The position numbers and the translations under genes were made by a program. Below are positions 4,056 through 9,093 of a stretch of 64,000 nt of DNA, in pieces. Under the pieces are notes generated by a model, which did not search any database, was not told the origin of the DNA, and worked only from the letters and a program-made list of their open reading frames with translations. The stretch's first letter is position 1. Every line of letters begins with the position of its first letter. Where the stretch lies: positions 105,411 through 169,410 of the forward strand of contig JAOMCX010000001.1 of NCBI GenBank assembly GCA_028345195.1. The letters are read 5' to 3'. The DNA comes from Candidatus Nitrosopelagicus sp. Its GTDB lineage: Archaea > Thermoproteota > Nitrososphaeria > Nitrososphaerales > Nitrosopumilaceae.

Positions 4056-4439
4056 TTATAATGCAACTAACTTTACGGTGTCCATTTTTTTATTAATCTG
4101 AAAACCTTTTGTTATTTCACTGACTGAGTCTGATTCCCCTTTCAAGATGAAAAGTTCCATACATTTGTCGCCTTCAATCTTATTGTGTAAATGCATTGTA
4201 ATGAGGTCTTCGTAGGAATGTTTGATTTCAGTTACCTGATTGTCATATTCATCATTATGAACAACTAGCAAAATGGCATTGACATTTCCTGAAAGACTTT
4301 CTTTTTGTTTTTCTTCAGAAACAAAACTTCGAATTCCCGCTCTAATTGCATCTGACCTGCCTGAAAATCCAAGACTTTTCTGCAAATTATCAATTTGTTT
4401 GAGAATTTCATCATTTAATGAAATGGAGACAATTGGCAT
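4056..4439 (-). CDS. NikR-like ribbon-helix-helix metal regulator
   Basis: About 127 residues: an N-terminal ribbon-helix-helix DNA-binding domain (MPIVSISLNDEILKQIDNLQ, then SGRSDAIRAGIRSF) plus an ACT-like C-terminal domain containing HSYEDLITMHLH and a following Cys (DKCMELFILKG). NikR binds nickel with His and Cys in this region. Here the H-x-H and Cys are present but separated by two more residues than I expect, so the metal is uncertain. It is divergent from the metal-uptake operon and is its likely regulator. I take the ATG at 4439 because a TATA-like element lies at about 4466-4476. gltX follows immediately. Confidence 0.82.
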   Translation of the reverse strand: MPIVSISLNDEILKQIDNLQKSLGFSGRSDAIRAGIRSFVSEEKQKESLSGNVNAILLVVHNDEYDNQVTEIKHSYEDLITMHLHNKIEGDKCMELFILKGESDSVSEITKGFQINKKMDTVKLVAL

Positions 4440-4446
4440 ATGCTCG

Positions 4447-4488
4447 TTGTTATTAAGAAACATAAAAATATTAACAAATTGTTATTAA
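4447..4488. promoter_or_regulatory. Candidate operator: repeated 10-bp element between regulator and metal-uptake operon
   Basis: The sequence TTGTTATTAA occurs exactly at 4447-4456 and at 4479-4488, spaced 32 bp, about three helical turns. The second copy overlaps a perfect inverted repeat TAACAA-A-TTGTTA (4472-4484). The block overlaps the regulator's own promoter and precedes the uptake operon promoter, where an autoregulatory NikR-type repressor would bind. That binding is inferred. Confidence 0.5.
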
Positions 4489-4499
4489 CTTTTTACACA

Positions 4500-4509
4500 T
4501 TTATTAATA
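4500..4509 (+). promoter_or_regulatory. TATA box of the metal-uptake operon
   Basis: The element TTTATTAATA lies with its centre near 4505. Archaeal transcription starts about 25-26 bases downstream, which predicts a start at about 4531, exactly where the 5' strand of the structured leader begins. This makes the leader part of the transcript. Confidence 0.55.
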
Positions 4510-4530
4510 AGATTTTTTGGTTATGTGTAT

Positions 4531-4604
4531 GGGAAACTTGGCAAGTCTGCACGAAAGCAACCGCATGCTTCAGTCGTACATTCAATCTTGCCTTGTTTTC
4601 ACCC
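4531..4604 (+). ncRNA. Structured 5' leader RNA, riboswitch candidate
   Basis: Complementary segments nest into one long imperfect hairpin. GGG 531-533 pairs with CCC 602-604 and AAAC 534-537 with GTTT 595-598. GGCAAG 540-545 pairs with CTTGCC 587-592. Bases 549-553 pair with 575-579 (one mismatch) and AAGCA 555-559 with TGCTT 566-570. The loop is ACCGCA. The element starts at the predicted transcription start and ends 13 bases before the ATG of the binding-protein gene. GGGTTGAT (605-612), next to the closing stem, resembles a Shine-Dalgarno sequence, so folding could control translation. I recognise no known riboswitch class. Confidence 0.55.
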
Positions 4605-4617
4605 GGGTTGATTATCT

Positions 4618-5985
4618 ATGAATAAGAATTCATCAATTGCTATTGTAGCTGGTGTTGCTATTGCTATAGCTGTAATTGGGTCTGTTTTTGCGTTTAGTGG
4701 AATTTCAAATGACTCCGCACCTATGGATACACCTGATCAAGATAACCTCGTACCACAAGAAGAAAAAATATCTATCATTACATCATTTTATCCATATCAT
4801 GAGTTTACAAAAAATGTAGCCGGTGACTTTGCTGATGTTAAACAATTTATGCCATCTGGAGTTGAAGCTCATGATTGGGAACCACGAGCCCAAGAGATTC
4901 AGTCTTTGAAAGATGCTGACGTTTTTGTATACAATGGATTAGGAATGGAACCTTATCTTGAAAATATAATTGAATCAGGAGAGTTTGACAATATTTTATT
5001 TGTTAAAGCATCTGACGGCGTTGAACTATTAAAATTTGAAGATGACCATGATGATCACGATGAACATGCAAAAGATGATGACCATGATGATCACGATGAA
5101 CATGCAAAAGATGATGGGCACGATGAACATGCAGAAGAATTTTATGAAGAAATCGCAATAATAATTGAAGAATTTGAAGAAGGACATATGACTGAATCAC
5201 AATCTATTGAAGCTATTGAAGAAATACTTGCTGAACATGAAGGTGACGGACATGAACATGGAGTCAGTGCAATTGAAGATATTGAACATGTGTTACATGA
5301 AATTGAAGATGGTCACATTGCAGGTCCAGAAGGTTTAGAAGAAATTCACCATTTAGTTTCTGGTGAAGATGTACATGATGAACATGCAAAAGATGATGAC
5401 CATGATGATCACGATGAACATGAAGAAGGAGGACACGATGGACATGATCATGATTATGAATTTGATCCACACATTTGGTTAGATCCAATTTTAGTAAAAC
5501 AACAAGTTAATGTTATACGCGATGGATTGATTCAAGCAGATCCTGAAAACAAAGAACACTATGAAGAGAATGCTCGTATTTACAATAATAAAATGGATGC
5601 ATTAGATATGAAAATAGGCACTGCTTTATCCTCATGTCAGAAAGACACAATTGTTCCATATCATAATGCGTTTACCTATCTTGGAGAAAGATATGACATA
5701 CATATTATGTCTCTAGGTGGAATGGCACCTGATGCAGAAGCCTCAGCTGCTGAAATTGCTGAATTTGTAGATTTTGTTAAGGATAATGACATCAAGGTAA
5801 TCTTTTCAGAAGACTTAGTTGATCCAAGACTTGCAGAGGTAATTGCAGATGAAGCAAATGCTCAAGTCATGTTATTCAGCCCACTTGAAGCATTGAGTCA
5901 AGAAGAGGCAAGATTAAACGTATCTTACATCGATAAGATGGAAGAAAATCTCGATTCTCTAAAGGTGGCTCTTGAATGTCAATAA
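4618..5985 (+). CDS. znuA: Metal ABC transporter substrate-binding protein (ZnuA/TroA type) with large His/Asp-rich insertion
   Basis: A 455-residue secreted lipoprotein-like binding protein; family members are usually ~300. Residues 1-26 form a signal or membrane anchor. The N-lobe contains AHDWEP (His85, metal ligand) and the C-lobe starts with DPHIWLDP at 283-290, both ZnuA hallmarks. Between them, residues 141-280 form an extra region: Asp-His-rich repeats (141-172), a helical stretch with two related halves (about 174-213 and 218-253), then a second Asp-His-rich repeat (251-279). A 46-bp exact DNA repeat (5059-5104 and 5377-5422) flanks the helical part. First gene of the uptake operon. 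Zinc is the family default; nickel or another metal is possible given the NikR-like regulator. Confidence 0.92.
   Translation: MNKNSSIAIVAGVAIAIAVIGSVFAFSGISNDSAPMDTPDQDNLVPQEEKISIITSFYPYHEFTKNVAGDFADVKQFMPSGVEAHDWEPRAQEIQSLKDADVFVYNGLGMEPYLENIIESGEFDNILFVKASDGVELLKFEDDHDDHDEHAKDDDHDDHDEHAKDDGHDEHAEEFYEEIAIIIEEFEEGHMTESQSIEAIEEILAEHEGDGHEHGVSAIEDIEHVLHEIEDGHIAGPEGLEEIHHLVSGEDVHDEHAKDDDHDDHDEHEEGGHDGHDHDYEFDPHIWLDPILVKQQVNVIRDGLIQADPENKEHYEENARIYNNKMDALDMKIGTALSSCQKDTIVPYHNAFTYLGERYDIHIMSLGGMAPDAEASAAEIAEFVDFVKDNDIKVIFSEDLVDPRLAEVIADEANAQVMLFSPLEALSQEEARLNVSYIDKMEENLDSLKVALECQ
5059..5422 (+). repeat. 46-bp direct repeats inside the metal-binding protein gene
   Basis: Bases 5059-5104 and 5377-5422 are identical over 46 bp. 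Each encodes the Asp-His-rich peptide around HDEHAKDDDHDDHDEH. They bracket the inserted helical module. A further partial copy precedes the first one (5041-5058). The arrangement suggests growth by unequal recombination or slippage. Confidence 0.85.
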
Positions 5986-8028: not shown

Positions 8029-9093
8029 TTGAAGGATTCACTTTTAGATCTTGCAATGAAAAATTTTGAGAATGAAAATTTTACAAAAGCAATACAACAG
8101 TTTGAAAAAATTATAAAATTGGATCCAGATAATCTTGTAGCAATCATTAACAAATCATCGTGTCTTGCAGAGATTGGAAAATATGATGAGTCTATAGACC
8201 AACTAGAAATTTTTCTTAAGAAAAATCCAAATGATTTTGATGCATTATACAATAAAGCAACAACTCTCTATGACATGGATCGACATGAGGAAGCATTAGT
8301 TACATTTGACATTGCATTGAAAATAAATCCAAAAAGTTCTAAAGCACTTTGTAACAAGGCAAATGTCCTTGTTGCATTAGGAAGACATGATGATGCATTA
8401 TCTGTGTATAATCGTGCCTTACAAATAGACCCAAGAGATATTGAAATTCTAAATAATGTTGGGATTGTGTATGCAGGACAAAAACAACATAAAAAGGCAA
8501 TAAAACACTTTGAGTCTGCTATTGACAAGAAAAAAGATGATATTGATTCACTAAGTAATCTTGGTAATTCACTTTTAGAGATTGAAAAATACAAGTTAGC
8601 ATACGAATGTTTTAGACAAGTAGTAAAATTAGATCCAACAGACTTTGATGCAACTTTTCGTCTAGGTATTACCTGTAACAATCTGAAGATGCCTGCCAAA
8701 GCATTGATCTATTTTAACAAACTACTTAGTCGTGATAAAAACAATATTGATGTACTAATCAACAAAGGATACTCATTACATCTTATGGGGAAATATGGAC
8801 GTGCTATACTTTGTTACAAACAAGTTTTAAAACAAGATCCAGATGAGATCAATGCAATATACTACATGTCTAAATCAACTGCAAGACAAAATGATGCAAA
8901 ACAAACATGTGAGCTGATTTCTAAACTATTGAAGCTACAATTCATCAATGATCTTGACCATGACCATGACCATGACCATGACCATAACCATAACCACAAA
9001 CAGGTACACTTGATAGAAAAAATTCAAAAAGATTCTGACTTTAAACGGATGAGAACAAATGCCAATTTCTTGTTCCTGCTAAAACATAACTAG
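8029..9093 (+). CDS. TPR-repeat protein with Asp-His-rich C-terminal tract
   Basis: A 354-residue protein made of about eight tetratricopeptide repeats (for example ALYNKATTLYDMDRHEEAL, ALCNKANVLVALGRHDDAL), ending in a metal-binding-like run of alternating Asp/His then Asn/His (about residues 309-324) before a short tail. The tract is encoded by a hexamer microsatellite (8954-8998). The start is a TTG 12 bases after the permease stop, since the nearby ATG at 8019 reaches a stop at once. TPRs bind partner proteins. Together with the His/Asp tract and operon position, a metal chaperone or sensor for the importer is inferred. Confidence 0.85.
   Translation: MKDSLLDLAMKNFENENFTKAIQQFEKIIKLDPDNLVAIINKSSCLAEIGKYDESIDQLEIFLKKNPNDFDALYNKATTLYDMDRHEEALVTFDIALKINPKSSKALCNKANVLVALGRHDDALSVYNRALQIDPRDIEILNNVGIVYAGQKQHKKAIKHFESAIDKKKDDIDSLSNLGNSLLEIEKYKLAYECFRQVVKLDPTDFDATFRLGITCNNLKMPAKALIYFNKLLSRDKNNIDVLINKGYSLHLMGKYGRAILCYKQVLKQDPDEINAIYYMSKSTARQNDAKQTCELISKLLKLQFINDLDHDHDHDHDHNHNHKQVHLIEKIQKDSDFKRMRTNANFLFLLKHN

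Follow-up and report, generated by a model that had tools for sequence, protein, structure and literature searches.

A lineage-specific structured leader RNA of the znuA operon in Candidatus Nitrosopelagicus and its probable role in translation initiation

Translational riboswitches for metals, such as NiCo/czcD and yybP-ykoY, have a folded leader 5' of a metal-transport gene, with a Shine-Dalgarno (SD) site downstream. In leader-ORF and translational-coupling leaders, a mini-ORF overlaps the start of the main gene and the SD site lies within its end. The mRNAs of the archaeal group studied here seem to be mostly leaderless, and to our knowledge cis-regulatory RNAs have scarcely been described in it. 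Our literature searches found no report of the leader described here. Transcription starts of marine thaumarchaea have been mapped (PMC5069720), and the passages of that report consulted make no mention of it. In this study, we analysed a stretch of 64,000 nucleotides from Candidatus Nitrosopelagicus sp. (the window; contig JAOMCX010000001.1, positions 105,411 to 169,410), in which a structured leader RNA of 89 nt is predicted 5' of znuA (4529..4617, + strand). Its layout is that of the metal riboswitches; unlike them, it has no Rfam match, its apex-SD pairing is not above chance and it occurs in a single genus. It also resembles the coupling leaders, with a mini-ORF that overlaps the znuA start (ATGA) and carries the SD site in its end. 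However, this mini-ORF starts at the predicted 5' end of the RNA in leaderless register, its peptide and frame are unconserved, and no codon-repeat sensor was seen. The remaining counterparts are znuA operons that lack a leader, in sister Nitrosopelagicus as well as in other Nitrosopumilaceae; these have the same promoter and, within the genus, the same repeats and nikR-like neighbour. We consider it fairly probable that the element is a lineage-specific, cis-acting structured 5' leader RNA of the znuA operon that acts at translation initiation.

The predicted 5' end of the leader was determined from its promoter. The TATA box TTTATTAATAA (4500..4510, + strand) is identical in all 15 genus genomes that were read, and it places the transcription start near 4529. 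The genomes compared are given by labels (G000, G001 and so on), with G000 as the reference of pairwise leader comparisons. In 400 kb of G001, a complete sister genome on a single contig of 1,232,128 bases, TTTAWWWW started 27-31 nt 5' of a gene ATG in 17 cases against 2.9 expected, and the distance peaked at 29-30 nt, the leaderless register. An ATG at 4529 follows the beginning of the TATA box by 29 nt, the modal leaderless distance. This ATG was missed in the earlier note, which had let the leader begin at 4531, the start it predicted from the TATA box; the leader proved real, and it begins at the ATG, at 4529. The exact 5' end of the RNA would lie at or beside this position.

The distribution of the leader was investigated by a ZnuA protein search of 31 genus genomes, followed by reading of the upstream sequence. 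The znuA start was readable in 15 genomes, and 11 of these had a leader of 88-94 nt (G000, G021, G020, G014, G024, G030, G004, G025, G001, G012 and G013). The other four (G008, G019, G027 and G029) had no leader; their in-frame znuA ATG lies 19 nt after the same TATA box, at the position of the leader ATG, and no SD site is evident. A search with a model of the leader gave E < 1e-15 only in the same 11 genomes, and no credible copy was found outside them among 250 family and 398 phylum genomes. The best family match elsewhere (1.1e-4, in one of the 250 genomes) was away from any znuA start. Weak matches outside the genus (G222, G145, G173 and others) occurred in roughly the number that chance predicts, and coding sequence is among the ones inspected. 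The other znuA genes of the family that were read have a short leader or none. These results indicate that the leader is present as one copy per genome, in one genus and at one operon. A mobile repeat was rejected, as each genome holds a single copy.

The leader stands between a regulator gene and the uptake operon in most genomes. The operon, for zinc or another metal, comprises znuA (PF01297 by domain match; 4618..5985, + strand) followed by genes for an ABC ATPase and an ABC-3 permease. ZnuA has a His/Asp-rich linker with repeated DDHDDHDEHAKDD-like units (window 5050-5440), which differs among relatives and disrupts alignments. Immediately 3' of the operon (8029-9093), visual inspection suggests a TPR-like protein; its C-terminal stretch is rich in His/Asp, and it may bind metal. 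The divergent gene at 4056..4463 (- strand) encodes a NikR-like repressor with RHH_1 and NikR_C domains. Its HxH...C pattern resembles the residues that bind nickel in E. coli NikR, and with such a protein beside a ZnuA-type operon the metal carried may be nickel rather than zinc. Between the two genes (4447..4489, no strand) lie two copies of TTGTTATTAA 32 nt apart and a TAACAA-A-TTGTTA palindrome, which are likely the operator of the NikR-type repressor. Similar sequence is found in relatives with and without the leader.

G013 resembles G000 in its nikR-like gene, promoter and leader, while its downstream znuA is only 47% identical to the G000 type. This znuA type is also carried by G019, there without a leader. 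It looks as though the operon of G013 (L085) was swapped at the start codon while nikR, promoter and leader stayed in place. In G004 (L147) and G025 (L148), leader and znuA are kept, and the sequence read around them shows no nikR-like gene; their neighbour is something other than nikR, the regulator gene having moved or been lost there. These results suggest that the leader tracks the promoter of the uptake operon, not one znuA sequence nor nikR. Where rpoB and GluRS allowed comparison, the genomes with a leader cluster closely, at 91% identity or more to G000, apart from the more distant G012, whose znuA is closely related; these are pairwise identities and not a species tree, and rpoB is absent from several genomes.

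We then compared the leader sequences. Type A includes the G000-like leaders and the divergent one of G013, and type B those of G004, G025, G001 and G012. Both types share a core, GUYUG...CAnCCRCAUGCUUY, the 3' arm of the stem and UGAUUAU. In the window, the core is GTCTGCACGAAAGCAACCGCATGCTTCAGTC (4545..4575, + strand), with the apical motif CAACCGCATGCTTC (4558..4571, + strand; consensus CAnCCRCAUGCUUY) near-invariant in all nine haplotypes. Expected numbers of leader differences were derived from how far the fourfold sites of znuA have diverged. Of the 89 leader positions, 2 differ between G000 and G024, where 12.7 would be expected (p 1e-4; 14% of fourfold sites differ). One position separates G000 from G030 (18.5 expected) and none separates it from G021 (6.1 expected), although only 11/18 positions match in the 18-nt spacer between TATA box and ATG of this last pair. 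The leader of G020 has three differences from that of G000, all of them in the stem, against 3.1 expected. These comparisons support selective constraint on the leader, although the uniformity of type A could partly be due to recent leader exchange between species. They also bear on whether the leader only stabilises the 5' end as a passive hairpin, or is an insertion without function at the start codon that gained an SD site. Its presence or absence between close relatives, its narrow range and the TATG-like sequence that flanks the insertion on either side would fit such an origin. However, a passive stem needs neither the strong constraint in type A nor an apex conserved across types, and the leader was kept with a different downstream operon. 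We therefore regard this explanation as unlikely.

The fold was examined by energy calculation. The earlier note had described one long hairpin, and its 82 nt do fold into one long, irregular hairpin of -23.1 kcal/mol (z -2.0), which 5 of 200 shuffles equalled. The full 89-nt leader gave -22.9 kcal/mol (z -1.5, p 0.08), so the predicted fold of this one leader sequence, taken alone, beats chance only modestly. All nine haplotypes fold below their own shuffle means (z -0.84 to -3.15). In the window, the P1 stem (all arms on the + strand) pairs GGCAAG (4540..4545) with CTTGCC (4587..4592), and its outer part pairs 4532..4537 with GTTTTC (4595..4600); the minimum-energy fold has GGG 4531-4533 paired with CCC 4602-4604 in place of outer P1. 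The G000 stem, 6 bp of GGCAAG/CUUGCC plus the outer stem, is unexceptional by itself (p 0.2). In G004, G025, G001, G012 and G013, 8-9 Watson-Crick pairs close the hairpin (p 0.003-0.013), with type B having AUGGCAAG(U)/(A)CUUGCCAU and G013 having CACGGUAAG/CUUACCGUG (p 0.003). Between types A and B, the 3' arm is fixed and the 5' arm is shifted by 9 nt with complementarity retained. The inner fold differs between the types, and thus no single inner structure is claimed.

Compensatory change was then assessed. GGCAAG/CUUGCC becomes GGUAAG/CUUACC in G013, and in G020 compared with G000, two changes convert U-U mismatches to pairs and one preserves a G-U pair. Two doubly changed pairs were found in each leader type, and shuffles matched these in 51/500 and 160/500 cases, so that neither count exceeds shuffles. 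When the stem partner was slid by 1-3 columns, pairing fell from about 90% to 29-56%. The check for covariation in relatives, which the earlier note had named as its refuting test, yielded a few compensatory changes and a moved stem arm, a weak sign in favour of the fold, while the counts stayed within shuffles in few sequences.

The 3' end of the leader carries the SD-like element GGGTTGATTAT (4605..4615, + strand), in which TGATTAT is invariant and supplies, with its TGA, an in-frame stop before znuA. The earlier note had placed an SD-like site just before the znuA ATG, as we also found: GGGTTGAT at 4605-4612, 5' of the ATG at 4618, pairs with AUCACCUCC of the 16S 3' end (AUCACCUCCUUA) at about -5 kcal/mol. 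Pairing was strongest in type B (-8.5 to -8.7 kcal/mol), followed by type A (-5.0) and G013 (-4.3), whereas among 35 genes in leaderless register it was mostly weaker than -3 kcal/mol. These results suggest that znuA is equipped for SD-led initiation where it has the leader, but not in its leaderless relatives.

The leader also holds a 30-codon ORF (4529..4621, + strand), which runs from the ATG at 4529-4531 to a TGA at 4619-4621 within the znuA start. It raises the strongest rival to a leader that acts through its fold, which is also compatible in part with it: the 5' ATG may be a true leaderless start, from which ribosomes would translate a mini-ORF of 30-33 codons, unfold the hairpin and pass to znuA. 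The mini-ORF would deliver ribosomes or sense translation, and its peptide sequence would be irrelevant. The ATG is invariant in all 11 leaders, at exactly the leaderless distance and beside a poorly conserved spacer, and in each of them the frame is open to the znuA overlap and, despite lengths of 88-94 nt, never in the znuA frame. The other frames of the leader are mostly open too, which makes this openness weak evidence. G001, G012 and G013 have this frame in a different register to the core, so the peptide is not conserved between lineages, and every change within the near-identical leaders of type A is non-synonymous. A conserved small protein was rejected on both grounds. Furthermore, the AUG is paired in the predicted type B folds, and its invariance may be mere initiation context. 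Translation of the mini-ORF is possible from its sequence, and coupling through it remains tenable, with its chances short of even.

A different role for the hairpin is to sense a metal. The earlier note had proposed a metal- or cofactor-responsive RNA switch, of which the folded, constrained and operon-specific leader holds up, while a riboswitch is not supported: we found no Rfam match, no ligand-binding core of a known kind and no covariation beyond shuffles. In such a mechanism, a ligand at the apical motif would hide the znuA SD site. A conserved apex in an otherwise variable hairpin, 5' of a metal-uptake operon and with an SD site downstream, speaks for it. However, an Rfam scan of the window gave only tRNAs, and neither the leader nor its homologues matched any family; the best sub-threshold match over the leader scored 18 bits against a cut-off of 65, and the gathering cut-off was not reached for NiCo, yybP-ykoY or other families. 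An apex-SD pseudoknot, CAACC/GGUUG, is seen in G000, and was rejected at p 0.12-0.9 across haplotypes; covariation of single columns does not rise above noise either, as 44 column pairs qualify. The alternation that the note had envisaged, with the 5' GGG and the GGG after the stem competing for one CCC, fails on geometry: CCC 4602-4604 directly adjoins GGG 4605-4607 and cannot pair with it in cis, and both are missing from type B. Thus, neither sequestration of the SD site nor a terminator was found as an expression platform. The restriction to a single genus and operon, the mere 30 or so conserved nt, and the NikR-type repressor gene that already adjoins the leader in most genomes also argue against it. 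A metal riboswitch is possible but unsupported, with nothing found that is specific to it, and we hold it to be improbable.

Attenuation of transcription, in which the hairpin and an oligo-U tract halt RNA polymerase before the SD site, would be consistent with the invariant UUU after the stem and with U6 in G004 and G025. The remaining lineages, including the window, have only U3-U4, and a terminator scan detected no intrinsic terminator in the leader. We rate attenuation as very improbable.

We return to a structured leader that acts at initiation. Transcription would begin at or beside the A of the ATG at 4529, in a register that normally yields leaderless mRNAs. At its 5' terminus, the leader would fold into a hairpin with the conserved motif at its apex and a closing stem that covers the 5' AUG or lies against it. 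It would then present the SD-like site, so that znuA is initiated internally from an SD site instead of in leaderless fashion. Most likely, the hairpin adjusts this step, either by keeping ribosomes from entering at the 5' AUG or by coupling such entry to znuA; a factor that binds the conserved apex would probably mediate this. Occlusion of the AUG would not be universal, since it is mostly unpaired in the predicted folds of G024 and G030. By these means, the leader probably controls production of the uptake protein.

A further idea, which we consider a long shot, is that the metal state folds or opens the 5'-terminal hairpin and so chooses between the leaderless 5' AUG of the mini-ORF and the SD-led internal AUG of znuA. 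If this is true, abundant marine ammonia oxidisers would possess a metal-responsive RNA switch of a new archaeal class. The leader sits on the trace-metal uptake genes of these open-ocean organisms, and its presence or absence at the same locus among close relatives allows leaderless and SD-led initiation of one operon to be compared as a natural before and after.
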